This document shows positions 17,415 to 53,016 of a DNA stretch of 64,000 nucleotides, one piece after another. The notes under the pieces are model-generated. The model had not been told where the DNA came from. It saw nothing but the letters and a program-made list of their open reading frames with translations, and did no database searches. Where the stretch lies: NCBI RefSeq assembly GCF_036237275.1, contig NZ_CP108352.1, positions 3,224,001 to 3,288,000 of the forward strand, in the 5' to 3' direction. How positions within the stretch are numbered: the first letter of the stretch is position 1; each line of letters opens with the position of its first letter. The stretch comes from Streptomyces sp. NBC_01353. GTDB taxonomy: Bacteria > Actinomycetota > Actinomycetes > Streptomycetales > Streptomycetaceae. The position numbers were made by a program, and so were the translations under genes.

Positions 17415-17954
17415 ATGACCTCCATCATCGAGAACTCTCCCCTTTTCGAACTCCGGGCCGACATTCACGTCGCGGCCTCACCGTCCGAGATCTACACCGT
17501 GGTGAGCGACCTCCCCCGCAGCGGCGAGTGGAGTACGGAATGCCAGGGCGGGGAATGGGTGTCCGGCGAGCCTTCGGCCGTTGGTTCGGTATTCCGCGGC
17601 GAGAATCTGCGCAGCGAGGAAGTCGTCGCCTGGGCTCCGCTGGTCCGAGGGGTCTGGCACACCGAATGCAGGATCACCGCCGCCGAACCGGGCCGGACGT
17701 TCCGCTGGATGATGCTCTCGCACGCGGGTGACGACCAGGAGAGCATCTGGGGCTTCGACATCGAGCCCGCGGAGGGCGGCGCCGTACTGGTGCACCACTT
17801 CCGTATGACCACGGCGACAGCGGGAATTCACAAGATCGCCGAGGACCTCGACGAGACGGAACGCGTGAAGTTCGTCGACGAATGGACTTCCAAGATCGCG
17901 CAGGACCTGGACTCCACGCTGAGTCGCATCAAGAACATCATCGAAACGGCCTGA
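17415..17954 (+). CDS. SRPBCC (START/Bet v1-like) family protein
   Basis: A 179-residue protein with the helix-grip ligand-binding fold seen in polyketide cyclases and lipid carriers. The N-terminal strand reads LRADIHVAASPSEIYTVVSDLPRSGEW, a mid segment reads FRGENLRSEEVVAWAP, and a C-terminal helix is rich in acidic residues. It starts block A of the cluster and is followed after 84 bp by the ligase gene. Likely a cyclase, a dehydratase or a binder of a hydrophobic intermediate; the sequence alone does not separate these. No strong ribosome-binding site is visible. Confidence 0.78.
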   Translation: MTSIIENSPLFELRADIHVAASPSEIYTVVSDLPRSGEWSTECQGGEWVSGEPSAVGSVFRGENLRSEEVVAWAPLVRGVWHTECRITAAEPGRTFRWMMLSHAGDDQESIWGFDIEPAEGGAVLVHHFRMTTATAGIHKIAEDLDETERVKFVDEWTSKIAQDLDSTLSRIKNIIETA

Positions 17955-18038
17955 ATACCGTCCGAAGCCGATACGAAGTCCCGACGTCGTGATTTCTGAC
18001 CCGGGTTGACGGACACCACGCAGACGAGGGATGTGTGT

Positions 18039-19607
18039 ATGTTTCTGCAACGCATCGGAAACAAGGGCATTGGCCTGGGAACACTCTTCGAGAGGGCAGC
18101 CGCGAAGCACCCCGCGAGCCCGGTGATTCTCGATCACGATCTGGATATCGCACCGCAACTGGGCCGTCGCCTCACCCTGACGGAAGTGGCCGATCTGGTC
18201 GACGACTTCGCGTCCCGGCTCTGGGCCGCCGGTGTCCGCACCAGTGACCGCGTGGTCATCCACAAGACCAACGGCTTCGACATCACCCTGCTCGCCTGCG
18301 CAATCGCTCGGATCGGGGCCGTACCCGTCCTGCTGTCACCGAAGCTGGACGGCGCGACGGTCGCCGAACTGCTGCGCCGGGTGGATCAGCCCTACCTCGT
18401 CACCGACCAGGACAAGCTCGACAACCACCTGCCTGCCGAGGTGTTCGAACTCTCCCGGAAGCTGCTGCTCACCACCGGCAGCCACGAGGGAGCCGTCGAG
18501 CTCGCCTCCCTGGCGGGCGCCGTCCGCGTCGCGTCGGCACGGGTCTCCCCGGACCACCCCACGCTGATCACGCACACCTCCGGCACCACGGGTGTCCCGA
18601 AGCTGGCCGTGCACACCGGACGGACCTTCCAGTCCCGCTACCGCCCGCAGGGGACGGTGGCCAGGCTGGTGGGACGGGACGAGCCGGTGGCGATCCATGT
18701 GTCCTTCGTGCACTCCCGGATGTTCACGGCGATGCCCATCTCCATCCTTCAGGGGCACCCGCTGCTCATCCTCGCCGAGGACGACCCGGAGAGCGTCGCC
18801 GAGCTGTTCACCCAGGTACCGCCCGGTCTGATCGAGGCACACCCGAACTCGTTCATGCGGTGGGAGGAGCTGGTGGACGACCCGCGTGCGCCACTGGCTC
18901 GGGTGAAGTACTTCAGCAGCACCTTCGACGCCATCCACCCGCGTACGGTGCACAGCCTGCTCGGCGCGTCCCGCCGCAAGGGCGCCCTGTTCATCCAGAT
19001 GTACGGGCAGAGCGAAGTGGGACCGATCGCCGGCCGTACGTACAGCCACAAGCGCGGGGCCGAGGCCGAGGGCCGGTGCGTCGGATCGCCGTTCCCGGGC
19101 ATGACCGGGGTGCGGGTCGTCAGCCGCGACGGCAACCCGCCCAGCAAGTCCTCGCCCGGCTTCATCGAGGTCCGCAGCGACGGACGGATCGTCACCTACC
19201 TCGGCGAGCACGAGCGCTGGAAGAAGCAGGTCAACGACGGCTGGTGGCGGATGGGCGACGTCGGCTACCGCACCAAGTGGGGCTGTCTGCACCTGCTGGA
19301 CCGCGAGGTGGACGAGATTCCCGGCATCGACAGCACGCTGGAGGTCGAGGACAAGCTCTTCGGCCGCTTGCGGGAGCTCACCGAGGTCATCATCGTGCCG
19401 GGCCCCGACGGGCTGCCTGTACCCGTGGTGTCCACCCGGGACGACAAGCCCATCGACACCATCGCCTGGCGGTCCGCCGTCGCCGACCTGCCGCCGATGG
19501 CCGAGCCCGTCCTGTGGCGCATCGAAGACCTGCCGCAGACCGCCACGACGAAGATCAAGCGACTGGAACTGATCAAGCAGTTGCGGGCCCAGGAACCGTC
19601 GGCGTGA
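18039..19607 (+). CDS. AMP-forming acyl/aryl ligase (ANL superfamily)
   Basis: A 522-residue adenylating enzyme. The phosphate-binding A3 loop reads THTSGTTGVPKLAVH, the A5 region QMYGQSEVGP, the A7 region WWRMGDVGYR, the A8 hinge LLDREVDEIPG, and the A10 lysine lies in TATTKIKRLEL. It would activate a carboxylic acid as acyl-AMP and pass it to CoA, an amine or a carrier. No carrier-protein domain or separate carrier gene is nearby. I chose the ATG at 18039 because GAGGG lies 7 bases upstream; an in-frame TTG at 18006 has no site. The next gene starts within the stop codon. Substrate unknown; a cluster-made aromatic acid is an attractive candidate. Confidence 0.88.
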   Translation: MFLQRIGNKGIGLGTLFERAAAKHPASPVILDHDLDIAPQLGRRLTLTEVADLVDDFASRLWAAGVRTSDRVVIHKTNGFDITLLACAIARIGAVPVLLSPKLDGATVAELLRRVDQPYLVTDQDKLDNHLPAEVFELSRKLLLTTGSHEGAVELASLAGAVRVASARVSPDHPTLITHTSGTTGVPKLAVHTGRTFQSRYRPQGTVARLVGRDEPVAIHVSFVHSRMFTAMPISILQGHPLLILAEDDPESVAELFTQVPPGLIEAHPNSFMRWEELVDDPRAPLARVKYFSSTFDAIHPRTVHSLLGASRRKGALFIQMYGQSEVGPIAGRTYSHKRGAEAEGRCVGSPFPGMTGVRVVSRDGNPPSKSSPGFIEVRSDGRIVTYLGEHERWKKQVNDGWWRMGDVGYRTKWGCLHLLDREVDEIPGIDSTLEVEDKLFGRLRELTEVIIVPGPDGLPVPVVSTRDDKPIDTIAWRSAVADLPPMAEPVLWRIEDLPQTATTKIKRLELIKQLRAQEPSA

Positions 19608-21622: not shown

Positions 21623-22579
21623 ATGATCACCGGTAACCGCACCAAGAGCCGCTACGAGAAGAAGTACGCGCGCCTGCAGGAAATGCGGCGCATGGATGTC
21701 CAGGAGGAGTACAGCCGCATCTGGTGGATGTCCGTCGATTACGAATTCCCCTGGGACTTCAGCGTCGCGGGCTCGCTGGCCTTCTACAACAGTGTCGCCC
21801 CGGCGCATATGGCTGCCCTGCTGGTGGAGACGGGTGAGCTGACGGAGAACACGCACCGCAGGCTGGAGCATTTCGGTCTGATCAGTCTGGAGATCGCGCG
21901 GCGTGGCTTCAAGGACCCGCGGGGCAGGGCGGCAGTCCGGCAGCTGAACCGCATCCACAAGAATGCGGTCAAGAGCATCAGCGACGAGAACCGCCAGTGG
22001 TCGATCAGCAACGACGACTACCTGTTCGTGCTGGGTACGAGCATGGTCATACCGGCCCGCTGGGTGGACCGTTACGCCTGGCGCCCGCTGAGCCGGCACG
22101 AGCGGACGGCCCTCTTCCTGCACATCAGGAAGCAGGGCGAGCTCATGGGAATCAAGGAGATCCCTGATTCCTACGAGGAGTTGGCCAAGTTCCACGACGA
22201 CTACGTGGAGAAGCATTTTCAGTACTCGCCCGATGCGGCGAAGCTCTGGCAGGTCCTGCAAGGCATGATCATCGATCCGATGGTCGGCTGGCTGCCGGAG
22301 AAGGCACGGCCGCTCGGTCGCCGGGTTGCCAAGGTCGCCGTGCCCGCGCTCCTGACTCCGCACATGCGAAAGGCCTTCGGTGTCCGCGAGCCCTCACGCC
22401 TGCTCAGCCTGACCGTCGACACCGCCATCAAGGCGCGCTCCGCCTATGTGCGCCGGCAGCCACCGCGCACCGGGCCCTCCGTTCCCGACCCCCTTCCGAC
22501 CCCGAACTTCCCCACGGGTGAATTCGATATCGAGAAGCTCGGCCCCGCGCACACCACGGGCGTGAAAGACACTGACTGA
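21623..22579 (+). CDS. MpaB / rubber-oxygenase catalytic-domain (DUF2236) protein
   Basis: A 318-residue all-helical protein. It carries the landmarks of the MpaB-like branch of PF09995: MDVQEEYSRIWWMSVDYEFP (24-43), a QLNRIHKN segment with Asn109 and His112, SISNDDYLFVLGTSMVIP, then RWVDRYAWRPLSRHERTALF and GELMGIKEIP (172-181). Fungal MpaB-type proteins cleave a prenyl side chain oxidatively, and the related Lcp cleaves polyisoprene using haem. The W-V-H-A-T-L motif of the common bacterial DUF2236 subgroup is replaced here by FVLGTS, as I recall for the MpaB-like subgroup. It lies 24 bp after the flavoprotein gene, ending block A. In a cluster with a UbiA prenyltransferase and a polyprenyl synthase, prenyl-chain oxidation or cleavage is the leading hypothesis. 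Confidence 0.8.
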   Translation: MITGNRTKSRYEKKYARLQEMRRMDVQEEYSRIWWMSVDYEFPWDFSVAGSLAFYNSVAPAHMAALLVETGELTENTHRRLEHFGLISLEIARRGFKDPRGRAAVRQLNRIHKNAVKSISDENRQWSISNDDYLFVLGTSMVIPARWVDRYAWRPLSRHERTALFLHIRKQGELMGIKEIPDSYEELAKFHDDYVEKHFQYSPDAAKLWQVLQGMIIDPMVGWLPEKARPLGRRVAKVAVPALLTPHMRKAFGVREPSRLLSLTVDTAIKARSAYVRRQPPRTGPSVPDPLPTPNFPTGEFDIEKLGPAHTTGVKDTD

Positions 22580-22660: not shown

Positions 22661-23632
22661 TCAGTTCCCAGCCGGGGCCGCGTGCCGCAGCACCGCGTCC
22701 AGCAGGTGAGCTTGCCGGACGCTGTCCTGGTACGGAGCTGAGCCCGCCCGTACGGCATCGACGAACGCGGCCACCGTGTTGGCGACCTGGTCGGCGGGGC
22801 GCAGCGGGATCTCCCTGACACCGGAGCGTTCCTCGAGTACGGCCACCGGAAGCCTGTCGGCCGGCGAGGTGAAGGCCCGGTCGAGCGTGATCCGCCCCGT
22901 ACTGCCGCACAGCTCATAGGAGTCGCGATAGGCGTGGTCGAGCCCGAAGGCGAGCTGCGCACCGACCCCGCCCGGGGTGCGCAGCAGCACAGCACCGCCG
23001 GTGTCCACGGTGAACCCCGGCCCGGAGGTGAGCGAGGCGCCGAGGACCGTCAAGTCGGGCCCGAGCAGGTGCAGCGCCGCGCGGAGGGGGTACACGCCGG
23101 TGTCCCACACCGCGCCGCCACCGAGCTCGGGGCGGTAGCGGATGTCGTCCGGGGAACGCCGGGGAACCGCGAACTCGGCCCGGAAGGAGCGCAGTTCGCC
23201 AATTGCGCCATCGGCGACGAGTCGACTCACCTCGGCGTGCTGGCCATGGTGGACGAACATGACGTTCTCCATCAGCGCCAGTCCGCGGCGCTTCGCCAGC
23301 TCGCCGAGTGCGGCCGTCCTGGCCGGCTCCATGGTCACCGGCTTCTCCGCCAGTACGTGCTTGCCCTGTAGGAGCGCCGCCTCGATCCACTCGGCATGCA
23401 GGGCGAGCGGCACCGGCACGTACACCGCGTCCACCGCATCGTCCGCCAGCAGCTCGGCGTAGCCGTGAACGGGCCGGGCTCCGTACTCCGAGGCGAGCGA
23501 CCGTGCCCTGTCCGGGTCCCGGCTCGCCACGGCGGCCACCTCGATGTCGGGGCAGGCGGCGAACGCGGGGAGCATCCGCCGCCTGGCGATGTCGGCACAG
23601 CCGAGCACACCGACCCTGACCGTTTCCCTCAC
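22661..23632 (-). CDS. NDP-sugar 3-ketoreductase, Gfo/Idh/MocA family
   Basis: A 323-residue NAD(P)-dependent oxidoreductase. The N-terminal Rossmann motif reads VRVGVLGCADIARRRML, and the family signature with its conserved lysine is LAEKPVTMEP. In deoxysugar pathways, members of this family (OleW, SpnN type) reduce the 3-keto group formed after 2,3-dehydration. The GTG start overlaps the epimerase stop by 4 bases. It is the last gene of block B. The matching 2,3-dehydratase is encoded at 39160-40602, so the sugar genes are split between two blocks. Confidence 0.85.
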   Translation of the reverse strand: MRETVRVGVLGCADIARRRMLPAFAACPDIEVAAVASRDPDRARSLASEYGARPVHGYAELLADDAVDAVYVPVPLALHAEWIEAALLQGKHVLAEKPVTMEPARTAALGELAKRRGLALMENVMFVHHGQHAEVSRLVADGAIGELRSFRAEFAVPRRSPDDIRYRPELGGGAVWDTGVYPLRAALHLLGPDLTVLGASLTSGPGFTVDTGGAVLLRTPGGVGAQLAFGLDHAYRDSYELCGSTGRITLDRAFTSPADRLPVAVLEERSGVREIPLRPADQVANTVAAFVDAVRAGSAPYQDSVRQAHLLDAVLRHAAPAGN

Positions 23633-24207
23633 GCCTCCGCCTTCCGCCAGTCGGGCAGCAGACCGGCGGCCAGGGTCTCGGCCAGGCTGCGCGCCTCGGT
23701 GTCCTTCTGCGACATCAGGGGTGGCTCGGAGTACGCCCAGGGCAGTCCGAGTTCGGGATCCAGTGGATTGATGTCGATCTGCGTACCGGGCGCGTACACG
23801 GTCGACATGGCGTAGCAGATACGCGTGTCGTCGGCCAGCGCGAGGAATCCATGACCCACACCGTCCGGGATGTAGAGGGCGCGCCCGGACTCCGCGTCGA
23901 GGGTGCAGACGTGGTACCGCCCGAACGCGGGTGATCCCACCCGCAGGTCGACGATGATGTCCCGCAGTGCCCCTCGTACGCAGGTCACGTACTTGGCCTG
24001 TCCCGGAGGCTGGGCGACCATGTGGATACCGCGCAGCGTGCCCCGGCAGGACACGGAGTAGCTGATCTGCCGGGTCACGAAGGGCTCTCCCAGTACACGC
24101 TCCAACGTGTCGGCGCGCAGGCTTTCGTGAAAGCTGCCGCGCTCGTCGGCCAAGAGCCGAGGGGTGACTGCAAAGGCCCCAGGGATCGCCGTCTCGGCGA
24201 TACGCAC
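23629..24207 (-). CDS. dTDP-4-keto-hexose 3,5- (or 5-) epimerase, RmlC family
   Basis: A 192-residue cupin enzyme. RmlC landmarks are visible: RGSFHES, the catalytic-histidine strand GTLRGIHMVAQPPGQAK, RVGSPAFGRY, PDGVGHGFLAL and INPLDPELGLPW. It inverts C5, and possibly C3, of a dTDP-4-keto-6-deoxyhexose, giving an L-configured sugar. I chose the GTG at 24207 because GAGGAGAC lies just upstream. Coupled with the ketoreductase gene. In pathways with prior 2,3-dehydration, members usually act only at C5; that is inference here. Confidence 0.88.
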   Translation of the reverse strand: MRIAETAIPGAFAVTPRLLADERGSFHESLRADTLERVLGEPFVTRQISYSVSCRGTLRGIHMVAQPPGQAKYVTCVRGALRDIIVDLRVGSPAFGRYHVCTLDAESGRALYIPDGVGHGFLALADDTRICYAMSTVYAPGTQIDINPLDPELGLPWAYSEPPLMSQKDTEARSLAETLAAGLLPDWRKAEA

Positions 24208-24270
24208 CGCGTTGTCTCCTCTCTTGCCGGTGTTCCGACCGGTGTTCCGGCAGGTGGACCGGAGCACCGG

Positions 24271-25377
24271 TCAGCCCCGGGCTGCGACCAGCTTCTCCAT
24301 CTCGACCACGATCTCGCCGGCCAACGGGAGTTGGGCGATCTCCTGCGACACCCTTTCGGCCCGCTCGCGGTAGCCGGGGTCGCTGAGCAGCTTCTGGCAC
24401 GCCTCGGTGATCTCCTGCGGCCCGCCGGACTCGATGAAGATCGCGGCACCGAATTCGGCCACCTTCCGCACCGCCTCCGTGGGGAACTCCGGGTTCGCGA
24501 TCAGCTGAGGTACGCCCGCGTTCAGCGACGTCATATCGGTGCCGCCGCCACCGTGGTGCACGATCACGTCGCAGGTGGGGGCCAGGATGTCCAGCGGTAC
24601 CCAGCCGATCCGTACGCCCGGCAGCGCGTCCCGCAGCTCCGCGGCGACGTTCTCCGGGGCCCCGACGATGACCTCCACGCCCAGGCTGCCGATGTTCTCG
24701 GCCAGGCCCTTCAAGGCGTCACCGCTGAACAGCCGGGTCCCCGCGGTGATGTAGACCCGGGGCCGGTCGCCCTTGGTGTACATCCAGCGCTCCAGCGGCT
24801 TCTGCGGATTGCCCGGCACCCATCGCATCGGCCGGGCCGGCAGCGGGTTCTCGGGCCGGAGGCTGGGCGGACACACGTCCAGCCACAGGTCGGGCTCCGG
24901 GACCCGGTCCAGGCCCAGTTCGTGGAGCACGGGCGCCAGCACCTCATCGGCTCCCGGGTCGTACATGCGGGTGTCGATCCGGTCCCACTCCAGGCGTACC
25001 GAGGGGATGTCGAGGTGATGGGCCAGGAGGGGGGCGGTGTAGAACATTCCCCCGCCGACCACGATGTCGGGACGCCAGTGCTCCGCCAGCTCCAGCAGCC
25101 GTTCCAGGCTGTTGACGCCGATCTCGGCGTAGGCCCGGCCCACCGTCTTGGCCCACTCCATCGGATCGTCCGGCATCGCACCCATGAAGGCGCTGACCTC
25201 TTCCACCGTCAGCGGAGTGATCTCGACCGGTGGCAGACCGACACTCGCGATATTGGGCAGAACCCAGTTGATCCCGCCCATGAGGACCTGGTGACCCGCA
25301 TTGCGGGCGGCCGTGGCGAGCGGCGCGTGCGAGAAAATGGGATACGGGCTGTTGCCCGGAATGAACAGGACCTTCAT
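24271..25377 (-). CDS. GT-B glycosyltransferase (GT1-like)
   Basis: A 368-residue glycosyltransferase of the natural-product type. The N-terminus reads MKVLFIPGNSPYPIFSHAPL, with the acceptor-side histidine region. The C-terminal nucleotide-sugar site reads CDVIVHHGGGGTDMTSLNAGVPQL, a compact form of the HxGGxGT signature. It would transfer the cluster's TDP-deoxysugar to the aglycone. It is about 40-50 residues shorter than EryCIII/DesVII-type enzymes, and no helper (P450-like activator) gene is present, so activator-independent action is likely. TAGGAG lies before the ATG. Confidence 0.88.
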   Translation of the reverse strand: MKVLFIPGNSPYPIFSHAPLATAARNAGHQVLMGGINWVLPNIASVGLPPVEITPLTVEEVSAFMGAMPDDPMEWAKTVGRAYAEIGVNSLERLLELAEHWRPDIVVGGGMFYTAPLLAHHLDIPSVRLEWDRIDTRMYDPGADEVLAPVLHELGLDRVPEPDLWLDVCPPSLRPENPLPARPMRWVPGNPQKPLERWMYTKGDRPRVYITAGTRLFSGDALKGLAENIGSLGVEVIVGAPENVAAELRDALPGVRIGWVPLDILAPTCDVIVHHGGGGTDMTSLNAGVPQLIANPEFPTEAVRKVAEFGAAIFIESGGPQEITEACQKLLSDPGYRERAERVSQEIAQLPLAGEIVVEMEKLVAARG

Positions 25378-25415: not shown

Positions 25416-26765
25416 TCAGTCCGTCTGCGTCAGCGCCTCGGCGGCCCGGAAGCCGGAGAGAAGCGCGGCCTCCGTGGTGGGCGAGTTGAAGTAGTCGCCC
25501 GCGAGCACGACCGGGGCGCCCTGCTGCTCCATGACCTGGACGGCCTGGCGATAGCGTCCCGGCGCCGGGATGGGGAACCCGTACGGGCGCTCGGCGATCT
25601 GGAACGGCTCGGCCCTGCCCGAGAAGTCCGACCAGAGGGTCTTGAGCCACGGGGCGACCGCGGCGAACTGCTCCGCCTGCGGCAGACCCAGCAGGCGCTT
25701 GGTGTTCGCCCGGCCCGGATAGGCGAAGACGAGGAGCTTGTCGACCAGCCGGCCCTGCTCGTCCCGCACCTTGCGGGGGTAGGTGATCATGTTGCGCAGC
25801 GGCTGGTCGCCGGGCCCTCCGGCCACGATGTGCGCCTCGGACGGCAGCGTCCCGACATCCACCAAGTAGGAGACGGACAGGGCGGGTTCGTACCGCTGGG
25901 ACTCCATGAAGCGCCGCGCATCGTCACCCACGACCTCCGGCGGGAGCGCGGCGGTGAGCTTCGCGGCGATCGGCGCAGGGGTGGCGAGCACCAACTCGTC
26001 GAACGTCTCGGTCACGGGATCACCGCCCTCCCGGGCCGCCGTGACCCGCAGCCCGGTCCCCGCCATCTGCACATCGGTCACCTCGTGCGCCAGGCGCAGT
26101 TCGGCGCCCTCCGCGTTCTTCTCGGCAATGATCTGCATGCCGTTGCGGAAGACGTAGAAGCCGGAACCGCCCATCCACGCCAGGAGTCCCTTGGCGTGCA
26201 CCGCGGACACGTCTTCGGACGCGAAGTTCCAGAACCCTTCGACCTGCGGCCGCAGCATGAAGTCGAAGCCGCGCCGCCCCAGCTGCTGGTAGCCCCACTG
26301 GGCGGCACTCAGCCCGTCGTCGAGCGGGGCGGACTTGATCGGGTCGAAGAAATCGATCTGGCTCTTGTTGCGCACCTGCTTGATGGTGGTGCTCAGGAAG
26401 GCGAGGCGGTCGCGCAGGCTGACGTGCTTGTAGGTGAGCGGGCTGAACACGGAGTCCGGGGACAGGGCGATGGCCTTGCCCTTGTCGGAGATGTAGATGT
26501 TGCTGGAGAGCTTCTGGAGCTCGCTCTCCAGGCCGTACTCGCTGATGAGCTCCGTCATCAGCGAGTAGAAGCTGACATACATCAGGTTGATGCCGACATT
26601 GGGTTCGATCTCCGGCCGGTGCCAGGAGCGGGCCCGTCCGCCGAGCCCGTCCGCCGATTCGTAGATCACGACTTCGCGCCCGGACGCGATGAGTTTCTTG
26701 GCAGCGGCGCTGCCGGCCATGCCGCCGCCGATCACCGCGGTTCGCTTGCCTGTGCGTGTGCTCAT
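25416..26765 (-). CDS. FAD-dependent amine-oxidase/desaturase-superfamily oxidoreductase
   Basis: A 449-residue flavoprotein. The N-terminal FAD site TAVIGGGMAGSAAAKKLIASG is followed by YESADGLGGRARSW, the R-rich GG doublet typical of protoporphyrinogen oxidases, phytoene desaturases and amine oxidases. A C-terminal GDYFNSPTTEAALLSGFRAAEAL contacts FAD. No signal peptide. It lies between the glycosyltransferase and the C-methyltransferase in block B. Plausible roles are desaturation of a prenyl chain, oxidation of the aromatic ring or sugar oxidation; the sequence does not choose between them. Confidence 0.85.
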   Translation of the reverse strand: MSTRTGKRTAVIGGGMAGSAAAKKLIASGREVVIYESADGLGGRARSWHRPEIEPNVGINLMYVSFYSLMTELISEYGLESELQKLSSNIYISDKGKAIALSPDSVFSPLTYKHVSLRDRLAFLSTTIKQVRNKSQIDFFDPIKSAPLDDGLSAAQWGYQQLGRRGFDFMLRPQVEGFWNFASEDVSAVHAKGLLAWMGGSGFYVFRNGMQIIAEKNAEGAELRLAHEVTDVQMAGTGLRVTAAREGGDPVTETFDELVLATPAPIAAKLTAALPPEVVGDDARRFMESQRYEPALSVSYLVDVGTLPSEAHIVAGGPGDQPLRNMITYPRKVRDEQGRLVDKLLVFAYPGRANTKRLLGLPQAEQFAAVAPWLKTLWSDFSGRAEPFQIAERPYGFPIPAPGRYRQAVQVMEQQGAPVVLAGDYFNSPTTEAALLSGFRAAEALTQTD

Positions 26766-40602: not shown

Positions 40603-40610
40603 GAATATCC

Positions 40611-44382: not shown

Positions 44383-45564
44383 TCAGCCGGCGGAGTCCGG
44401 GGTCAGCACCACGGCACCCGGCGCACCGTCGACGGGAGTTTCGCGCTCCTCGGCGATGCGCATCGCCTCCTCCACGAGCGTCTCCACGATCTTCGACTCG
44501 GGGACGGTCTTGATGACCTCACCCTTCACGAAGATCTGGCCCTTCCCGTTTCCGGAAGCAACGCCGAGGTCGGCCTCCCGGGCCTCGCCGGGCCCGTTGA
44601 CGACACAACCCATCACGGCCACCCGCAGCGGCACGGGGAAGCCCTCCAGTGCTGCCGCCACCTTCTCCGCCAACGTGTGCACATCCACCTGGGCCCGCCC
44701 GCAGGACGGGCAGGAGACGATGTCCAGGCCGCGCTCCCGCAGGTTCAGGGATTCCAGGATCTGGTTGCCGACCTTGATCTCCTCGACCGGCGGAGCGGAC
44801 AGCGACACCCGGATCGTGTCCCCGATGCCCTCCGCGAGCAGAGCACCGAAGGCCACCGCCGACTTGATCGTGCCCTGGAACTGCGGCCCGGCCTCGGTCA
44901 CACCGAGATGCAGCGGGTAGTCGCACTGGGCCGCCAGCTGCCGGTACGCCGCGATCATGACCACGGGGTCGTTGTGCTTGACGGAGATCTTGATGTCCCG
45001 GAACCCGTGCTCCTCGAACAGCGAGCACTCCCACAGCGCCGACTCGACCAGCGCCTCCGGGGTGACCTTTCCGTACTTCACCAGCAGACGGCGGTCCAGC
45101 GAACCGGCATTGACACCGATGCGAATCGGAATCCCCGCATTCGACGCCTCCTTGGCGATCGCGCCGATCTGGTCGTCGAACTTCTTGATGTTGCCCGGGT
45201 TCACCCGGACCGCCGCACAGCCGGCCTCGATCGCCGCGAAGACGTACTTGGGCTGGAAGTGAATGTCCGCGATCACCGGGATCTGCGACTTCCGCGCGAT
45301 GACCGCCAGGGCCGCCGCGTCGTCCGCGGACGGAACCGCCACCCGCACGATCTGGCAGCCCGACGCGGTCAGCTCGGCGATCTGCTGCAAGGTGGCGTTG
45401 ACGTCCGACGTCAGTGTCGTCGTCATCGACTGCACCGACACCGGGGCGCCGCCACCCACGGGCACCGAACCCACCATGATCCGCCGCGACTTCCGCCGCT
45501 CGGCGACGGGCGGCGGCCCCTCGTCGTTCCTGATCTTCGGTATGCCAAGTCCTACGGTCGTCAC
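44383..45564 (-). CDS. ispG: 4-hydroxy-3-methylbut-2-en-1-yl diphosphate synthase
   Basis: A 393-residue GcpE enzyme of the MEP pathway. It converts the cyclic diphosphate MEcPP to HMBPP using a 4Fe-4S cluster. Cluster ligands are visible in [12 protein letters not shown] and [11 protein letters not shown]. Other landmarks are [23 protein letters not shown] and [17 protein letters not shown] start with GGGGAG upstream, overlapping the dxs stop by 4 bases. Last gene of block D. A housekeeping ispG is expected elsewhere in the chromosome, so this is probably a dedicated copy boosting prenyl supply. Confidence 0.95.
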
Positions 45565-47411
45565 CGTGTCTCCCCTCGACTTGCCTGCTCCAGCAACCGG
45601 GCCACCTCGTCGTCCAGACCGTCCGTCGGCTCCTCCCGCTCCGCGTGTGCCTCCGGACCGCTGATCTCCTCCACCACCGTGCGCGCGATGTTCTGCGCGG
45701 TCAGCCCGCACCCGGACAGCACATCGGCGCGGCTGCCGTGGTCCAGGAACCGGCGCGGGATGCCGAACTCGCGCAGCGGTGTCCGCACTTCGGAGTCCCG
45801 GAGGAACTGCGCGATGGTCGAACCCACCCCGCAGGTGCGGCTGTTGTCCTCGATCGTGATCACCAGGCGGTGCCTGCGGGCCATGTCGGCCAGCGTCGGG
45901 TTGACCGGCGTCACCCAGCGCGGATCCACCACCGTCGCCCCCACGCCTTGCGCCCAGACCACCTCGGCGACCCGCAGGGCCATCCCCGCCAGCGCGCCGA
46001 CCGAGACGATGAGGACGTCCAGCGGGCCGGCCCTGTGCAGTACGTCGATGCCGGCGAAGGTCGCCTTGGTCGGCAGGTCCTCGCCCGTCGGCCCCTTGGG
46101 GAACCGGATGAGCGTCGGGCCCTCCTCCCAGCCGACGGCCTCCTCCAGCAGTTCGGCCAGCCGGGTGCCGTCCCGCGGCGCGGCGATCCGCAGTCCCGGC
46201 ACCACCTGCAGCACCGACATGTCCCACATGCCGTTGTGGCTGGGCCCGTCGTCGCCGGTGACCCCGGAGCGGTCCAGCACGAACGTGACCGCGCGGCGGT
46301 GCAGGGCCACGTCCATCAGCAGCTGGTCGAAGGCCCGGTTGACGAACGTGGCGTAGATCGCCACGACGGGGTGCACCCCGCCGAGGGAGAGCCCGGCGGC
46401 CATCGTGACGGCGTGCTGCTCCGCGATCCCCACGTCGATGACCCGGTCGGGATAGCGCTGCTGCATCGGCAGGAGCCCGGTCGGTTCCAGCATCGCCGCG
46501 GTGACGGCGACGACGTCGGGCCGCTTCTCGGCGATCCTGACGATCTCCCGCCCGAACACCGAGGTGAACGACGGACCGGACGACCGGCCGACCGGCAGGC
46601 CGGTGACCGGGTCCATGGGCTTGATCGCATGCCCGAGGTCCAGCGCGTTGTTCTCGGTGTGTACGAAGCCGCGGCCCTTCTCGGTGACCACGTGGACGAC
46701 CACCGGACCGTCCAGGTCGCGGGCCGTGCGCAGGGCGTCCTGCACGGCCGCCACGTCGTGCCCGTCGACCGGGCCGAGGTAGGCAAGACCGAGCTGCTCG
46801 AACAGGCCGGGTCCCGGCTTGCCCTTCCGCAGGTCCCCGAGGTGATCGGCGAAGCCGCCCACGGTGGGTGCGTAGGAACGCCCGTTGTCGTTGAGCACGA
46901 TGACCAGCGGCCGGTCCGGCCCGCCTGCGATGTTGTTCAGCGCCTCCCAGGCCATACCGCCGGTCATGGCGCCGTCACCGATGACCGCGACCACCGCCCG
47001 GTCCGTGGTGCCCAGGTGGGCGTCGGCGCGGGCGAGCCCGTCGGCGTACGACAGCGCGGTGGACGCGTGCGAGTTCTCCACCAGGTCGTGTTCGGACTCC
47101 GCCGGATTCGGGTAGCCGGACAGCCCGCCGCCCTTGCGCAGCCGGTCGAAGCCGCCGGCGCGGCCGGTCAGGATCTTGTGTACGTACGACTGGTGCCCGG
47201 TGTCCCACAGCAGCCGGTCCTCGGGCGAGTGGAACACGCTGTGCAGCGCGATCGTCAGCTCCACCACGCCCAGATTGGGGCCGAGGTGGCCGCCGCTGGC
47301 GGACACCCGGTCGATCAGGAACGCACGGATCTCGCCGGCGAGTACCTCCAGTTCCGCGGTGGTCAGTTCGCGCAGCCGGTCAGGGCCTTGGACAGTCTCC
47401 AACAGTGACAT
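45561..47411 (-). CDS. dxs: 1-deoxy-D-xylulose-5-phosphate synthase
   Basis: A 616-residue thiamine-diphosphate enzyme, the first and rate-controlling MEP step (pyruvate plus glyceraldehyde-3-phosphate). Visible are [38 protein letters not shown] and the cofactor motif [16 protein letters not shown]. Also present are [17 protein letters not shown] (catalytic Glu and the transketolase C-half) and [18 protein letters not shown]. Length is normal. ATG at 47411 with GGGAG 9 bases upstream. It lies 14 bp after the prenyl synthase gene and is coupled to ispG. Presence in the cluster indicates a high demand for isoprene units. Confidence 0.96.
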
Positions 47412-47425
47412 TCGCTCGGTCTCCC

Positions 47426-48463
47426 TCACCGGTTCCGGTAAGCGACTTCGACAGCCATCTCGGCCAGCTCCCGGCGCCAGTCCTCATCCAGTCCCGCCCG
47501 GTCGATCGCACCGCAGGCGCGCTCGACGAGAAGGGTGATGTGCTGCTCGATCCGCTCCTTGCCCTCGCCCAGCCGGTCGAGGATCTCCGCGGTGTCCCAC
47601 TCCCGCGCGGAGATCAGCTTGCGGACGCTCTCGTCGCGCTCCGCCGCATCGGCCAGCAGCAGCGTCATCTTGTGCTGCTCCAGGTCCAGTCCGACCGGCT
47701 TGCCGGCGGCCGTACTGTCTCCGAACGTCCCTATGAGGTCGTCGCGCAGCTGGAACGCCTCGCCCAGCGCCTCGCCGAATTCCTCGAAGACCGGCGCGAG
47801 GTCCTGCCGGCCGGCGATCGCGGCTCCGAGCAGCAGCGGGCGGTGGATGCTGTAGCGGCCCGACTTGCAGATGGCGATCCAGCGGGACAGATCGGGATCG
47901 ACCACCCCCTCGGCGGCCACGGCGACATCCAGGTACTGGCCGATCTGGATCTCCGTGAGCATTTCGCTCCAGATGTCCCGCGCCGCCGGCGGCAGGTCAC
48001 GGGTGAGGCGGTCGGCGTACACATTGGCCAGTACGCCGGAGATGATCGCCACCCCCTCGCCGTACCGGCGCGGCTCGCCGAGCCAGCCGTGCTCGACGTG
48101 GCCCGCCGCGTGCAGGGTGTGCACCGCCGGTGTACCGCGCCGCAGTTCGGATGCGTCCAGCACATCGTCGTGGATGAGCGCCCCGGTATGGATCAACTCG
48201 ACCCCGGCCGCGGCATCCACGAGCAGTGGTTCGGCCGGATCGCCGCCTGCGGCCAGGAAGCCGGCCGCGCAGAAGGCGGGCCGCAGCCTCTTGCCGCCGG
48301 CGGCGACCAGGTCGGTCACCGCTTCGACCGGGACGGCGCCCCGGAGGTTCACACCGAGCCAGCGCTCCCGTTCCGCGGCCAGGAACTCGCTGAGCCTCCG
48401 CTCGACCCGCTCGATCACTTCGGAACGGGTCTGCCTTGCCGTGGAGACCGTGGAACTCACCAT
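47426..48463 (-). CDS. Polyprenyl (probably geranylgeranyl) diphosphate synthase
   Basis: A 345-residue trans-prenyltransferase. The first aspartate-rich motif is HDDVLD (DDxxD). The second is [12 protein letters not shown] in the form common in actinobacterial enzymes. GGKRLRP binds isopentenyl diphosphate. The residues four and five before the first motif are small (Ala and Gly, in [13 protein letters not shown]). In this family that favours C20 or longer chains over C15, so GGPP is my inference. ATG at 48463 with GAGGGAAGG upstream. Second gene of block D, 50 bp after ispH. Confidence 0.9.
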
Positions 48464-48513: not shown

Positions 48514-49464
48514 TCAGCCCGCCGGCGTCGAATCGGTGAGCCGAACCGGGGGGTGGAAAACGATGCTTTCCTGTGCCACCTGTTCGAGTTCGATGTCGCC
48601 GTAGCCGAATTCGGCCAGCTTCTCGAGGAGTTGTTCGACGAGGATCTCGGGGGCGCTGGCCCCCGCGCTCACCCCGATCGTCTCCACGCCTTCGAGCCAC
48701 TTCTCGTCGAATTCGCCGACATCGGGAACGAGGTAGGACGGCGTACCGAGACGCTCCGCCACCTCGACCATCCGAATCGAGTTGCTCGAATTGCGCGAGC
48801 CGACCACCAGCACCAGATCGCTGCGCGGGACGATCGCCTTGACGGCGTCCTGCCGGTTCTGGCTCGCGTAGCAGATGTCGTCGGTGCCGGGGCCGCGCAG
48901 GTCGCTGAACCGCCGGTCGAGAACCTCGAGGATGTCCTTGGTCTCGTCCACCGAGAGCGTCGTCTGGGTCAGGTACGCCACCGGGGCGTCGGACGGCAGG
49001 TCGAGCCGCTCGGCGTCCTCGGCCGTCTCGACGATCACGGTCTGGTCCGGCGCGTGCCCGTAGGTGCCCTCGACCTCCTCGTGACCCTCGTGGCCGACCA
49101 GGATCAGCGTCCGGTCCTCCCGCGCATAACGCTTGGCCGCCTGGTGCACCTTGGACACCAGCGGGCAGGTCGCGTCGATCACGTCGAGGCTGCGCGCTTG
49201 CGCGTTCTGCCGGACCTGCGGGGAGACACCGTGGGCGGAGAACACACAGATCGCGGACTCGGGTACGTCCTCCTCCGAGTCCACGAAGATCGCGCCGCGC
49301 TGCTCCAGGAGCCGCACCACATAGTGGTTGTGCACAATTTCCTTGCGCACATATATCGGGGCACCGTATTTCTCGAGCGCCAACTCGATGATTGATATGG
49401 CCCGGCGGACTCCCGCGCAAAAACTGCGAGGCTCCGCAAGGAGCACTTTCTTATTGAGCCCCAT
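48514..49464 (-). CDS. ispH: HMBPP reductase, cluster copy
   Basis: A 316-residue 4Fe-4S enzyme, the last MEP step, giving IPP and DMAPP. The three ligand cysteines are visible in [23 protein letters not shown] and DDICYASQNRQ. The active-site HGHEEV-type [14 protein letters not shown] and [12 protein letters not shown] are intact. It is clearly diverged from the housekeeping copy at 57421-58440, which is a close homologue. First gene of the MEP operon, divergent from the IS701-like gene over 266 bp. GGAG lies before the ATG. Confidence 0.95.
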   Translation of the reverse strand: MGLNKKVLLAEPRSFCAGVRRAISIIELALEKYGAPIYVRKEIVHNHYVVRLLEQRGAIFVDSEEDVPESAICVFSAHGVSPQVRQNAQARSLDVIDATCPLVSKVHQAAKRYAREDRTLILVGHEGHEEVEGTYGHAPDQTVIVETAEDAERLDLPSDAPVAYLTQTTLSVDETKDILEVLDRRFSDLRGPGTDDICYASQNRQDAVKAIVPRSDLVLVVGSRNSSNSIRMVEVAERLGTPSYLVPDVGEFDEKWLEGVETIGVSAGASAPEILVEQLLEKLAEFGYGDIELEQVAQESIVFHPPVRLTDSTPAG

Positions 49465-49730
49465 TCTCGCTCCGCTTCCCAAGCATAGGTTCGACGCCAC
49501 CCGGGGGCGCTGCCGCGGGCCGGCTTCGCCTTGATCACCGACCTATCGACTGTCGTCTTCGAGTCACCCCCCGGTCAACGCGAAAAGGCCCCTGGGCACG
49601 AAGTAGTCATGTGCACCCGCATACCCAACCGCTGAACCTTGCCATCGCATTGTTATTCAACCGGGCAAGGCGAAATTCCTAATGTGGAGCGGCAGTACAA
49701 GATCGCTGGGCACTTGACCGGAGGAGTCAC

Positions 49731-50993
49731 ATGAGCACTGTCAGCCCGCAGTTGACAGCTGACTTGCCGACGCTGATGACAGCGCGTCCGCCCGCGGCCC
49801 GGGTCAAGACCCCCGCACGGCGGCCCGAGTGGAATCTGCCGGCGGCCGCCAGTGACCCCGAAGCGGTGCTGAACGACCTCTGCGACCCGCTCTTCCGGTC
49901 GCTGCGCCGCAGCGACCAGCGCCGAAGGGGCAAGGAGTACATCCAGGGGCTGCTGTCGACCAGGGGCCGCAAGTCGATACGCAACATGGCGGCGCTGATC
50001 GGCGGCAGCGGCACCGGCCAGAGCCTGCACCACTTCATCTGCAGCTCCACCTGGGACTGGATGCCGGTGCGTCAGGCGATGTCCCAGTACGTGATCCACA
50101 ACGCTCCGCCGCAGGCGTGGGTGGCCCGCCCGATGACCATCCCCAAGGTCGGGCAGCACTCGGTGGGCGTCAGCCGGTACTTCTCCCCCGACGAGGGCCA
50201 GGCCCTCAACGCCCAGCGTGCGATCGGGGTGTGGGCGGTGTCCGACCAGGTGAGTGCACCGCTCAACTGGCAGCTGCACCTTCCGCAGACCTGGATCAAG
50301 GACGGGCTCCGCCGCAACCAGGCATCGATTCCCTGTGAGATCGAGCCCGAGACGCTCAGCGACTGTGTGCTCACCGCCTGCCGGGAGTTGCTGACCGGCT
50401 GGGGGCTGCCGTCCCGGCCGGTGGTCGTCGACATCGGCGAGGCCGACCCGCTCGACACCATCAACGGCCTGCGCGCCGAGGGGATCCCCTCGCTCGTCAA
50501 GGTCACCGGAGATCTGCCGCTCACCGTCACGGACCCCGGGCTCACCGGCCACGGCGCGCACCTGCTGCCCGCGGCCGACATCATGCGCGCCGCGCGCAAC
50601 ATGCGGCGTCCCGTCCAGTGGCGCGAGTACGACCCGCAGCCGATGCGCCGTACCAGCCTGGTCACCGCGGTACAGGTGGGCGTCGCGGGGTCGCGTACCG
50701 ACGGCCGACTGCTCCTGGTCGGCGTCGAGGAGACGGACCGGCGGCGCCCGCCCGAGCTGTGGCTGACCGACATGCCCAGGGACCGGGCCGCCTCCGTACC
50801 GCAGTTGAGCAGTTTCTCGCGCCGGGTCGAGCGGTCCTTCGACGAAGTCAGCTCGCAGGTCGGCATCCGGGACTACGTCGGCCGCTCGTACAGCGGGTGG
50901 CACCGCCACGTCACTCTCGCCTCGGCCGCACACACGGTCGCCGTCCTGTCCGCCGCCTGCGCGCAGCCGGACCGGGCGAACCAGGCCTCCTGA
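49731..50993 (+). CDS. IS701-like transposase relative, catalytically degenerate
   Basis: A 420-residue protein with the DDE_5/IS701 layout. It has a QGLLSTRGRKSIRNMA N-terminal helix region, the KVGQHSVGVSRYFSPDEGQ and NAQRAIGVW segment, LPQTWIKDGLRRNQ, and a C-terminal VERSFDEVSSQVGIRDYVGR with GWHRHVTLASAAH. In active IS701 enzymes the first catalytic Asp lies in a DDTG(F)PKKG motif; here it reads ARPMTIPKVG, so that Asp is lost. Only 10 bp separate it from the DAHP synthase gene, GGAGGAG precedes its ATG, and I see no terminal inverted repeats. It is best seen as a domesticated protein in the operon, function unknown, possibly regulatory. Confidence 0.82.
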   Translation: MSTVSPQLTADLPTLMTARPPAARVKTPARRPEWNLPAAASDPEAVLNDLCDPLFRSLRRSDQRRRGKEYIQGLLSTRGRKSIRNMAALIGGSGTGQSLHHFICSSTWDWMPVRQAMSQYVIHNAPPQAWVARPMTIPKVGQHSVGVSRYFSPDEGQALNAQRAIGVWAVSDQVSAPLNWQLHLPQTWIKDGLRRNQASIPCEIEPETLSDCVLTACRELLTGWGLPSRPVVVDIGEADPLDTINGLRAEGIPSLVKVTGDLPLTVTDPGLTGHGAHLLPAADIMRAARNMRRPVQWREYDPQPMRRTSLVTAVQVGVAGSRTDGRLLLVGVEETDRRRPPELWLTDMPRDRAASVPQLSSFSRRVERSFDEVSSQVGIRDYVGRSYSGWHRHVTLASAAHTVAVLSAACAQPDRANQAS

Positions 50994-51003
50994 AGGAAAG
51001 GTA

Positions 51004-52188
51004 GTGGACAGGGCAGTGGACAACGATCTGCTGGACATCCGATCCCGTACGGCGCTTCAGCAGCCCGGCTGGGACCACGACCCGCGGCTGGCCGCGGTCC
51101 GTGCGGAACTCGCGGGCAGGACGCCGCTGGTCCGCGCCGACGACGTGCACCGGCTCAAGGAAGCGCTGGCCAGGGTGGCCGAGGGAACCGCGCACCTGGT
51201 GCTGGCCGGCGACTGCGCCGAGGACCCGGCCGAGTGCACGCCCGGCTATGTCGCCAGGAAGGCGGGACTGCTCGACGTACTGGCCGGCACCCTGAAGATG
51301 GTCACGCACCGGCCGGTCGTGCGGGTCGGGCGCATCGCCGGCCAGTACGCCAAGCCCCGGTCGCGTGCCACCGAGTCACTGAGGGACGTCGAACTGCCGG
51401 TCTTCCGTGGGCACATGGTCAACGGACCCGAGCCCGACGCGGCGGTCCGAAGGCCGGATCCCACGCGCATCCTGGACGGCTACCAGGCCGCCGCGGCGAC
51501 GATGGAGTACCTCGGCTGGCCGGGCGCCGGAGGCCCGCCGGACATCGACGCCGACGTCTGGACCAGCCACGAGGCGCTGCTGCTCGACTACGAGATCCCC
51601 ATGCTCCGCCGGGACGCGACGGGCCGGGTGCTGCTCGGTTCCACGCACTGGCCGTGGATCGGCGAACGGACCCGGCAGGTCGACGGCGCCCATGTCGCCC
51701 TGCTCGCGGGCATCGTCAACCCGGTGGCCTGCAAGGTCGGCCCCGGCATGACGCCCGGTGAACTGGTCGCGCTGTGCGAACGGATCGACCCCGACCGGGA
51801 GCCCGGCCGGCTCACCCTCATCGCCCGGATGGGCGCCGGTGTGGTGGCCGAGGTGCTCCCCGCCCTGGTGGCGGCCGTACGCGACGCAGGGCACCCGGCC
51901 ATCTGGCTGACCGACCCCATGCACGGCAATACGGTCACCACCCCGGCCGGCCTCAAGACCCGGTTCGTGGAAACGATCGTGCGGGAGGTCCAGCAGTTCC
52001 AGACGGCCGTCCGCAGGTCGGGGGGTGTCGCGGGCGGGCTGCACCTGGAGACCACCCCCGACCACGTCACCGAGTGCGTTCCGAACGAGTCCTGCGTCGA
52101 CGAGGTCGCCGAGAAGTACACGAGCTTCTGCGACCCGCGGCTCAATCCGGAGCAGGCGACGGCCGTGGTGGCGTCCTGGCTCGGATGA
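51004..52188 (+). CDS. Class II 3-deoxy-7-phosphoheptulonate synthase (PhzC/AroF-II type)
   Basis: A 394-residue class II DAHP synthase, joining erythrose-4-phosphate and PEP, the entry to the shikimate pathway. Hallmarks are LAGDCAEDPAE (metal-ligand Cys71), RVGRIAGQYAKPRS, HEALLLDYE, STHWPWIGERTRQ, IARMGAG and LTDPMHGNT. At 394 residues it is close to the secondary-metabolism PhzC type. It is about 65 residues shorter than the regulated primary enzymes, so feedback insensitivity is a reasonable inference. GTG start with AGGAAAGG upstream. It feeds aromatic precursor supply for the cluster. Confidence 0.93.
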   Translation: MDRAVDNDLLDIRSRTALQQPGWDHDPRLAAVRAELAGRTPLVRADDVHRLKEALARVAEGTAHLVLAGDCAEDPAECTPGYVARKAGLLDVLAGTLKMVTHRPVVRVGRIAGQYAKPRSRATESLRDVELPVFRGHMVNGPEPDAAVRRPDPTRILDGYQAAAATMEYLGWPGAGGPPDIDADVWTSHEALLLDYEIPMLRRDATGRVLLGSTHWPWIGERTRQVDGAHVALLAGIVNPVACKVGPGMTPGELVALCERIDPDREPGRLTLIARMGAGVVAEVLPALVAAVRDAGHPAIWLTDPMHGNTVTTPAGLKTRFVETIVREVQQFQTAVRRSGGVAGGLHLETTPDHVTECVPNESCVDEVAEKYTSFCDPRLNPEQATAVVASWLG

Positions 52189-52245
52189 CACCGGCGGCAG
52201 CCGCAGAGAAGTCCAGTCGTCGACGACAGTGAGGAGACCCGCTCC

Positions 52246-53016
52246 ATGGAAGGCAGGACAGCACTGGTGACCGGCGCGGCCGGCGGGATCGGTGCCTCGG
52301 TGGCCGGCCAACTCGCCGGGCAGGGCGTGACGGTCGCAGCCGTGGACCGGGACTCCGAGCGGTTGCGCGAGACGACGGAGAAGCTGGCCGCCGACGGCCT
52401 GAGGGTCATCCCCTTCGCGGCCGACGTCAGCTCGGCCGCCGAGGTCGAGTCCGTCGTGGACGCGGTGGAGAAGCAGCTGGGCCCGCTGGACTTCCTGGTC
52501 AACGCGGCGGGTGTACTGCGCCTGGGCGCCGTGGGCGAACTGACCGAGGAGGACTGGCGCACCACGTTCGGCGTCAACACGACGGGCGTCTTCCTCATGT
52601 CCCAGGCGGTGGTACGCAGGATGACGGGCCGCTCGCGCGGCGCCGTCGTCACCGTGGCGTCCAACGCCGCCGGCACGCCCCGCATGGAGATGGCCGCCTA
52701 CGCGGCGTCCAAGGCCGCGGCGACGATGTTCACCAAGTGCCTGGGTGTGGAGGTGGCCAGGTACGGAATCCGCTGCAACGTGGTGGCGCCCGGCTCGACC
52801 GACACCCCCATGCTCAGGTCGATGTGGCACGACGAGAGCGGCCCGCGCAAGACCGTCGAAGGCTCGCTCGCCGCCCACCGGCTGGGCATCCCGCTGGAGA
52901 AGGTGGCCACCCCGTCGGACGTCGCCGACGCCGTCCTCTTCCTGCTCTCGGACCGGGCGTCGCACATCACGATGCACACCCTCACCGTGGACGGCGGAGC
53001 CACGCTCGGCACCTAG
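52246..53016 (+). CDS. 2,3-dihydro-2,3-dihydroxybenzoate dehydrogenase (EntA-like)
   Basis: A 256-residue short-chain dehydrogenase. NAD site [13 protein letters not shown]; catalytic Ser139, Tyr152 and Lys156 ([22 protein letters not shown] region). It has EntA-type segments [19 protein letters not shown]-like [34 protein letters not shown] and [17 protein letters not shown]. EntA oxidises 2,3-dihydro-2,3-dihydroxybenzoate to 2,3-dihydroxybenzoate; close relatives act on dihydro-hydroxyanthranilate. Isochorismate synthase and isochorismatase are not in the cluster, so they must be supplied from elsewhere or the substrate differs. GAGGAGA lies upstream. Confidence 0.88.

Follow-up and report, generated by a model that had tools for sequence, protein, structure and literature searches.

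The window analysed here, a 64,000-nucleotide stretch from Streptomyces sp. NBC_01353 (positions 3224001-3288000 of a host genome of 8.57 Mb), possesses a predicted biosynthetic cluster of 27 genes (window positions 16279-53016), which on balance seems to encode a glycosylated, polyprenylated aromatic compound made by a pathway with nitrite-dependent diazotisation. The gene identities, the unity of the cluster, the residues of a CreE-type enzyme and the grouping of an AMP-binding (ANL) ligase were obtained by comparison; from these we infer the substrates, the reacting amine, the order of steps, the use of genes in trans, the chain length and the fate of the N-N unit. Each module is known singly, and what is new is that a predicted nitrite-dependent 3-hydroxyanthranilate (3-HAA) cassette occurs together with genes for prenylation by UbiA and for a C-methyl deoxysugar. 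Searches of open-licence PMC papers found no described product in which nitrite/diazotase chemistry is combined with these two features and no polyketide synthase (PKS) takes part, nor did any of the papers listed describe a gene cluster with both UbiA and diazo genes, as judged by titles and the beginnings of abstracts. If the proposal is true, a new scaffold class would be present in at least three genomes, the UbiA group would serve as a genome-mining hook, and there would be a handle on why many diazotase-type clusters lack nitrite genes of their own. It is suggested more tentatively that this is the type case of a diazo or azo glycosylated meroterpenoid family, in which a distinct UbiA subfamily prenylating a 3-HAA-derived ring marks a broad, unexplored class of prenylated natural products that depend on nitrite.

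Extent and unity of the cluster

Genes were predicted with a GC-frame gene caller, by which all 27 open reading frames (ORFs) of the cluster are open and coding-scored, and families were assigned by Pfam and NCBIfam scans of 40 window proteins, 27 being cluster members and 13 coming from the flanks. The original prediction, which was made from the DNA letters, had placed the cluster at 17415..53016. Its right end was retained, but the left border shifts to about 16279, because the alcohol dehydrogenase (ADH) gene at 16279-17274 and the adjoining SRPBCC gene correspond to a single fused gene in Kibdelosporangium persicum, with identities of 63% and 70% to the respective window proteins. The same fusion occurs in genome G504 (62% and 67%), and the ADH gene is therefore placed inside the cluster.

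Every class of gene in the original prediction was recovered. Pfam models recognised four genes of methylerythritol phosphate (MEP) and prenyl supply (IspG, DXS, a polyprenyl-diphosphate synthase and a second IspH; another IspH gene lies beyond the cluster at 57421-58470), a UbiA prenyltransferase (PF01040), and the unusual oxidases, namely DUF2236/MpaB, BBE, amine-oxidase-type and 664-aa FAD enzymes. Also present are a class II 3-deoxy-D-arabino-heptulosonate 7-phosphate synthase (DAHPS, PF01474), an EntA-like short-chain dehydrogenase/reductase (SDR) above the NCBIfam dhbA equivalog cut-off, seven deoxysugar genes (RmlA, RmlB, 2,3-dehydratase, RmlC, Gfo/Idh, C-methyltransferase and glycosyltransferase, by Pfam/NCBIfam), a major facilitator superfamily (MFS) exporter, and two large regulators of the SARP (1092-aa ORF) and LuxR types. 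The claimed lack of a PKS, a nonribosomal peptide synthetase and a recognisable terpene cyclase was borne out, with zero ketosynthase, condensation-domain or class I/II terpene-synthase matches (E <= 1e-3) among the 40 window proteins; matches of the EntA-like SDR to a ketoreductase model and of the ligase to the general AMP-binding one are usual for their superfamilies. Four genes had been passed over. Besides the gene of the AMP-binding ligase (18006-19607) and a transposase-like gene of the DDE_5 family (49731-50993), these encode two reductases, one of the IRED type and one an FMN reductase.

Searching genome contigs with the UbiA protein returned two loci. One is a 68% relative in K. persicum, which belongs to Pseudonocardiaceae; the other, matching at 27%, lies in a metagenome-assembled genome of Prevotellaceae. 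Around the K. persicum locus (448.5-488.1 kb of its contig), homologues at >= 40% identity were found for 22 of the 27 window genes, those of RmlA and RmlB falling below this value. As well, genome G313, which is of the same class as the window's host but of a different family, carries 23/27 window genes at >= 40% identity in one stretch, where CreE has no homologue. The Gfo/Idh, BBE and IRED-type genes have no homologue at E <= 1e-8 in either stretch. The gene order is unlike across the window, K. persicum and G313, so that the set seems to be kept together by function. Two unrelated clusters lying side by side, with nitrite and sugar genes on the left and terpenoid genes on the right, might be suspected from the strand switches between gene blocks. 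However, both halves co-occur, rearranged, in K. persicum and G313, which makes such a juxtaposition, one that the original prediction had named as its own possible undoing, extremely improbable, and the stretch is, by its gene content, one predicted biosynthetic cluster. The K. persicum cluster resides in the named, cultured strain 4NS15, so the product can be sought there.

Predicted nitrite supply, the AMP-binding enzyme and the aromatic cassette

The 664-aa protein has a sole PDB match at E <= 0.01, 8cp2 (E 2e-196; 57.4% identity over 592 residues), which is the aspartate-bound L-aspartate N-hydroxylase of Streptomyces sp. V2 (PMC10404684). Among the 13 residues named in that report, 12 are kept, the exception being R597 at the alignment edge, and the protein is accordingly annotated as a CreE-type L-aspartate N-hydroxylase, or nitrosuccinate synthase. 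Such an enzyme acts together with a CreD lyase in the aspartate-nitrosuccinate nitrous-acid pathway (PMC11705231, PMC10777205). CreE relatives were matched in 65/394 genomes, and at 13 of the 19 loci fetched from among them, a lyase of the same type as that in the K. persicum cluster is encoded within the stretch. This K. persicum lyase has CreD 5xny as its best PDB match (E 6e-139), followed by a cycloisomerase (4e-82), and a CreD-type relative is also carried at a second locus of the window's own genome.

The stop of the ANL ligase gene overlaps the predicted CreE start by 4 bases. The best PDB matches of the ligase are 9xb8, which is FadD in its depositors' naming and is matched by an AvaA6 equivalog at 9e-93, and then 9bq0/8tf7, which is Tri17; this enzyme forms N-N bonds and can also convert anilines to diazo compounds (PMC11705231). 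A tree of 78 ANL sequences separates the window, UbiA-locus and Ava types from 18 ANLs of the own genome and 3 others at an ultrafast bootstrap (UFBoot) value of 100, with the window and UbiA-locus types joined at 98. The Ava type comprises 32 sequences, namely orthologues above the AvaA6 cut-off, weaker AvaA6-model matches and four ligases adjoining CreE/CreD genes. For this tree, 9 of 69 sequences (the window's and 68 matches) were dropped as duplicates or fragments, and the outgroup was reduced from 50 AMP-binding matches in the genome to 30 taken as loci and to 18 with an ORF of 420-700 aa; three further ligases (UbiA loci L100 and L104, and L201) cluster with this outgroup. The motif H[ST]SGTTG is present in the displayed rows of the window, UbiA-locus and Ava types, its first residue being Y, F or L rather than H in every one of the 18 outgroup sequences. 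The grouping suggests a diazotase-group ANL enzyme, sister to the AvaA6 type, with putative diazotase activity. A plain fatty-acid or aryl CoA ligase, which was the first guess, was displaced by the tree and by the 9xb8-AvaA6 and Tri17 matches.

The aromatic genes resemble those of the pzm cluster of Streptomyces sp. SCSIO 40020, which directs the synthesis of the 3-HAA hydrazone penzonemycin (PMC9323291). According to Table 3 of that report, pzm encodes an anthranilate-synthase-type enzyme, an isochorismatase, an EntA-like dehydrogenase, DAHPS and a 432-aa 'transposase', along with CreD and CreE. The remaining three proteins are a quinone reductase of 334 aa, an SRPBCC protein of 180 aa and an AMP-binding protein of 527 aa, Pzm18, which is described as a CreM homologue with 48% identity. 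When families and lengths, rather than sequences, are compared, seven of these ten kinds are common to the window (DAHPS, EntA-like SDR, 'transposase', CreE, quinone reductase, AMP-binding and SRPBCC proteins). The K. persicum cluster has 10/10 and G313 8/10, lacking CreD and CreE, and both hold isochorismatase and ADIC (2-amino-2-deoxyisochorismate)-synthase-type genes. DAHPS and the EntA-like gene are thus, by family, members of a published 3-HAA/diazo cassette. The original claim that the set matches no known product therefore stands for the set as a whole but not for this part, since DAHPS, the EntA-like dehydrogenase, CreE and the ligase match the penzonemycin module. Unlike the window cluster, pzm also has an acetolactate synthase and an N-acetyltransferase, and its table lists no UbiA, MEP or deoxysugar gene (PMC9323291); neither the acetolactate synthase nor the acetyltransferase family has a match among the 27 cluster proteins.

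Of the 3-HAA pathway, the window holds the EntA-like gene and DAHPS, and the ADIC synthase and isochorismatase are encoded at 5.63 Mb of the same genome. This second locus (5.615-5.655 Mb; G000:C1:5615000-5654999, L078 and L079) has 10/10 cassette kinds, among them the three that the window lacks, and these would be supplied from there to the window cluster in trans. The second locus also possesses a multicopper oxidase, a GAF-PucR regulator and a luciferase-like monooxygenase, and has no UbiA relative. Elsewhere in the own genome, G000:C1:6069000-6088999 (L191) carries a ligase of the same group (66%), a GAF-PucR regulator and a transposase-like gene, and 2965000-2984999 (L098) carries an additional set of ADIC-synthase, isochorismatase and EntA-like genes.

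Predicted prenylation and glycosylation, and the proposed pathway

UbiA relatives occur in 17/150 genomes of the genus, the own genome included. All 20 sequences aligned keep residues D63 and D64, and DDVTGxxDGSD or a near form of it is found in 17 of 25 rows, the other eight being three incomplete pieces and five divergent sequences (L107, L111-L114); L111 and L112, both divergent, are two of the three UbiA loci that bear CreE/CreD-type genes. Structure prediction gave a fold usual for UbiA proteins (mean pLDDT 93), which matches the archaeal lipid synthase 6m31 best among PDB entries. The protein thus has the fold and the two Asp-rich motifs of UbiA aromatic prenyltransferases and would polyprenylate an aromatic acid, although fold and motifs, being compatible with a prenyltransferase or a cyclase, do not discriminate between them. 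Among 20 UbiA loci besides the window, mostly fetched as 20 kb stretches with some extended further, 16 have a diazotase-group ligase in the stretch. At L111 (G096:C6:7190000-7209999), genes for CreD-type, CreE-type and 268-aa proteins, a ligase, a UbiA relative, a 402-aa protein, IspG, DXS, a prenyl synthase and IspH lie on one strand. A block of two DegT aminotransferases, a UbiA relative, an amine-oxidase-type enzyme and a ligase is repeated in genomes of the genus, at L029, L030, L100-L102, L104, L105 and L109.

The residue at -5 of the first DDxxD of the prenyl-diphosphate synthase is Gly in the window and G313, Ala in K. persicum and Phe in three other relatives. By the rules for such enzymes, Gly at this position points to a chain above C20, and the product of the window enzyme is probably of this length.

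The sugar genes agree with the C-methyl deoxysugar of the original prediction, since the C-methyltransferase, 2,3-dehydratase, RmlA/B/C and glycosyltransferase were all found. In PDB, the C-methyltransferase is nearest to 'Sugar 3-C-methyl transferase' 5t64 (508 bits) and TcaB9 (497), with the mycarose enzyme (222) well behind. No sugar aminotransferase was recognised by Pfam among the window cluster proteins. The K. persicum and G313 clusters have an aminotransferase and an extra methyltransferase, whereas the window has the Gfo/Idh reductase instead, by which a neutral 3-C-methyl-2,6-dideoxyhexose is expected here and an aminosugar in the sister clusters.

We propose the following pathway. 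DAHPS would increase shikimate flux, and the EntA-like dehydrogenase, with the ADIC synthase and isochorismatase of the second locus, would lead to 3-HAA. The CreE-type enzyme would convert aspartate to nitrosuccinate, from which the CreD-type lyase of the second locus would free nitrous acid, and the ANL enzyme would activate nitrite with ATP and diazotise the aryl amine of 3-HAA or one added later. UbiA would attach a polyprenyl chain made by the MEP genes and prenyl-diphosphate synthase of the cluster, while the MpaB-type, amine-oxidase-type and BBE flavin enzymes might oxidise the scaffold or the sugar. RmlA, RmlB, 2,3-dehydratase, C-methyltransferase, RmlC, Gfo/Idh and glycosyltransferase are presumed to make and attach the 3-C-methyl-2,6-dideoxyhexose, and the MFS protein to export the product.

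Retention of the N-N unit in the product is modestly favoured over its loss as N2. Traceless deamination, in which the amino group leaves as N2 to give a meroterpenoid without an N-N bond, has published precedents in avenalumic and p-coumaric acids and in the reductive deamination of furaquinocin cited in PMC12670698, and a quinone-reductase-type ADH is present in the cassettes of the window, K. persicum, G313 and the second locus. However, no AvaA7-type reductase was recognised in the cluster, and like ADH and SRPBCC genes belong to the penzonemycin cluster, whose products retain the N-N bond (PMC9323291), so this outcome is considered unlikely, if a serious contender.

Several observations weigh against nitrite-dependent diazotisation of a prenylated aromatic. 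The ligase lies outside the Ava clade (UFBoot 73) as a sister type, by which its placement within the AvaA6 clade was rejected; it scores 80.9 bits against the AvaA6 model (cut-off 975), among NCBIfam models it scores highest with a long-chain-fatty-acid CoA ligase subfamily, at 120 bits and below the cut-off, and a 4-chlorobenzoate CoA ligase ranks close to Tri17 in PDB (E 7e-23 vs 7e-25). Pfam scans found no CreD lyase among the 40 window proteins, and the anthranilate/ADIC-synthase-type and isochorismatase kinds of the pzm cassette are likewise lacking from the window. In pzm, the amine of 3-HAA was proposed to be N-acylated and a second, later-introduced amine to be diazotised (PMC9323291), so that the reacting amine here may be that of 3-HAA or another. 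CreE- and/or CreD-type genes are near only 3 of the 20 other UbiA loci. No CreE relative was found at E <= 1e-20 in the genomes G313, G504 or G472, yet the ligases of G313 and G504 are 73% identical to the window's. Kawai et al. likewise reported nitrite genes to be absent from 72/134 ava-related clusters, for which they suggested unlinked genes, another route or outside nitrite; the lack of CreE relatives thus weakens the proposed nitrite role but leaves it tenable.

Finally, UbiA may be a cyclase, as UbiA-type terpene cyclases exist. The product would then be a glycosylated cyclic terpenoid joined to a 3-HAA-derived acid, with the ANL enzyme acting as an acyl activator, for which the attachment of 3-hydroxybenzoate to a terpenoid in brasilicardin is a precedent. 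The presence of the ligase in G313 without any CreE relative fits this view, as does the first motif DDVTGxxDGSD, unusual beside the customary NDxxDxxxD, and the amine-oxidase-type enzyme resembles HpnE and carotenoid desaturases, below cut-offs. However, the ligase falls with the N-N-forming enzymes, and in the window the end of its gene overlaps the start of CreE. UbiA itself keeps the two Asp-rich motifs and the usual fold of its family, though these are compatible with a cyclase; a cyclase is thus judged rather unlikely and prenylation of an aromatic is preferred.

A decayed, silent remnant that has lost CreD, ADIC synthase, isochorismatase and sugar aminotransferase was also considered. 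All four are present in K. persicum and missing from the window, and a search of the own genome with the K. persicum aminotransferase, made without a positive control, found no homologue at E <= 1e-15. However, the 27 ORFs are open and coding-scored, the second locus has three of the four missing functions, and the window carries other genes instead (Gfo/Idh, BBE and IRED-type), which renders decay improbable compared with a functional diazotising pathway.

Furaquinocin and napyradiomycin-azamerone are likewise meroterpenoids whose clusters have a diazo-forming ANL-type enzyme (NapB4 being a CreM homologue), but their aromatic core is PKS-derived. The cremeomycin, avenalumic acid and p-coumaric acid clusters share the CreE-type nitrite supply and an ANL diazotase, although they act on other aromatic amines, prenyl and sugar genes are not mentioned in their descriptions, and the window ligase falls outside their Ava-type clade. 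The aromatic part of 1,6-dihydroxyphenazine is chorismate-derived, and we know of no nitrite or deoxysugar module in its prenyltransferase cluster. This actinomycete cluster is similar in its isoprenoid supply and membrane-bound prenyltransferase but differs in its phenazine core (PMC4044012). Persicamidines are glycosylated terpenoids from K. persicum, the host of the sister cluster, but have a C35 core, an isourea, oleandrose and no aromatic unit (PMC10107436). They were set aside as the product on gene content alone, and the sister cluster is probably not that of persicamidine because sugar C-methylation, aminotransferase and 3-HAA genes are encoded there. Diazepinomicin and brasilicardin were considered as well, and neither was adopted.

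The transposase-like protein and the gene inventory

The transposase-like protein belongs to a DDE_5/IS701-type family that has lost the first catalytic acidic pair. All 22 aligned members (21 of 42 listed places and the K. persicum copy) lack it and have an RPMxIPK-type sequence instead. Nineteen DDE_5 control proteins were aligned, one being an own-genome copy already counted and one of the same degenerate type; in the 17 independent controls, the acidic pair D[DE] is present in 12 and a gap in 5. The predicted model best matches Tn5 transposase in Foldseek (E 2e-10, TM 0.55). DAHPS, EntA, isochorismatase and/or ADIC-synthase genes are within the stretch at 9/22 loci, and penzonemycin has the 432-aa 'transposase' pzm10 at the same place of its cluster (PMC9323291). 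The tail-to-tail neighbour is a GAF-PucR regulator at two loci and a gene of like length (631-667 aa, known by length alone) at nine more. The transposase-like protein seems to be a transposase that has been domesticated, is catalytically dead and was kept in these clusters, where it may bind DNA as a regulator.

Table 1. Predicted genes of the cluster (window positions) and places of the transposase-like relatives (locus positions).
Feature	Position	Strand	Basis
Zn-ADH/quinone-reductase-type oxidoreductase	16279..17274	+	Pfam ADH_zinc_N; like pzm13 by annotation and length
SRPBCC/polyketide_cyc2 protein	17415..17954	+	PF10604; 70% K. persicum, 73% G313; like pzm19 by annotation and length
AMP-binding (ANL) enzyme, putative N-N-forming/diazotase group	18006..19607	+	PDB matches 9xb8, 9bq0/8tf7; tree
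Predicted CreE-type L-aspartate N-hydroxylase (nitrosuccinate synthase), 664 aa	19604..21598	+	PDB 8cp2
MpaB/Lcp-type (DUF2236) oxygenase	21623..22579	+	PF09995; 52% in both sister clusters
Gfo/Idh sugar oxidoreductase, probable ketoreductase	22661..23632	-	PF01408; sister clusters without homologue
dTDP-sugar 3,5-epimerase (RmlC-like)	23629..24267	-	PF00908
EryCIII-type glycosyltransferase	24271..25377	-	PF06722/PF21036; 60% and 59% in sister clusters
FAD amine-oxidase/phytoene-desaturase-like enzyme	25416..26735	-	PF01593; 58% and 60% in sister clusters
Sugar C-methyltransferase	26815..28137	-	PDB 5t64, then TcaB9; 63% and 62% in sister clusters
BBE-type flavin oxidase, hexose oxidase 2wdw/TamL/CrmK/AknOx group	28217..29845	-	Sister clusters without homologue
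IRED/6-PGDH-like reductase	30125..31018	+	PF21761; sister clusters without homologue
NADPH-dependent FMN reductase	31296..31883	+	PF03358
MFS exporter	31942..33540	+	Pfam MFS_1; NCBIfam LfrA/QepA-like, below cut-offs
Large SARP regulator	33719..36997	+	BTAD/Trans_reg_C; 57% in both sister clusters
Glucose-1-phosphate thymidylyltransferase (RmlA)	37131..38186	+	TIGR01208 above cut-off
dTDP-glucose 4,6-dehydratase (RmlB)	38183..39163	+	TIGR01181 above cut-off
NDP-hexose 2,3-dehydratase	39160..40602	+	PF03559
UbiA-family membrane prenyltransferase	40647..41573	+	PF01040; motifs DDVTGxxDGSD, YSNxxDxxGD; UbiA fold (model)
LuxR-type large regulator	41695..43872	-	Pfam GerE
IspG (GcpE)	44383..45564	-	PF04551
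DXS	45561..47429	-	PF13292
Polyprenyl diphosphate synthase, Gly at -5 of first DDxxD	47426..48418	-	PF00348
Second IspH copy	48514..49500	-	Pfam LYTB
DDE_5 transposase-like protein, first catalytic Asp lost	49731..50993	+	PF13546; like pzm10 by annotation and length
Class II DAHP synthase, short form	51004..52188	+	PF01474; same kind as pzm9
EntA-like dihydroaromatic dehydrogenase	52246..53016	+	TIGR04316 above cut-off, 355.5 vs 300 bits; same kind as pzm8
Transposase-like relatives	L034:4756-6003, L079:11862-13106, L173:9153-10148, 18 further loci		

Directly beyond the right border of the cluster, a toxin-antitoxin pair of the Phd/YefM-ParE type is located at 53938-54463. On the other side, serpin and repeat-protein (LRV/HEAT-like) genes are present at 10037-14375 of the window, adjoined by a subtilase with a P-domain on the opposite strand.

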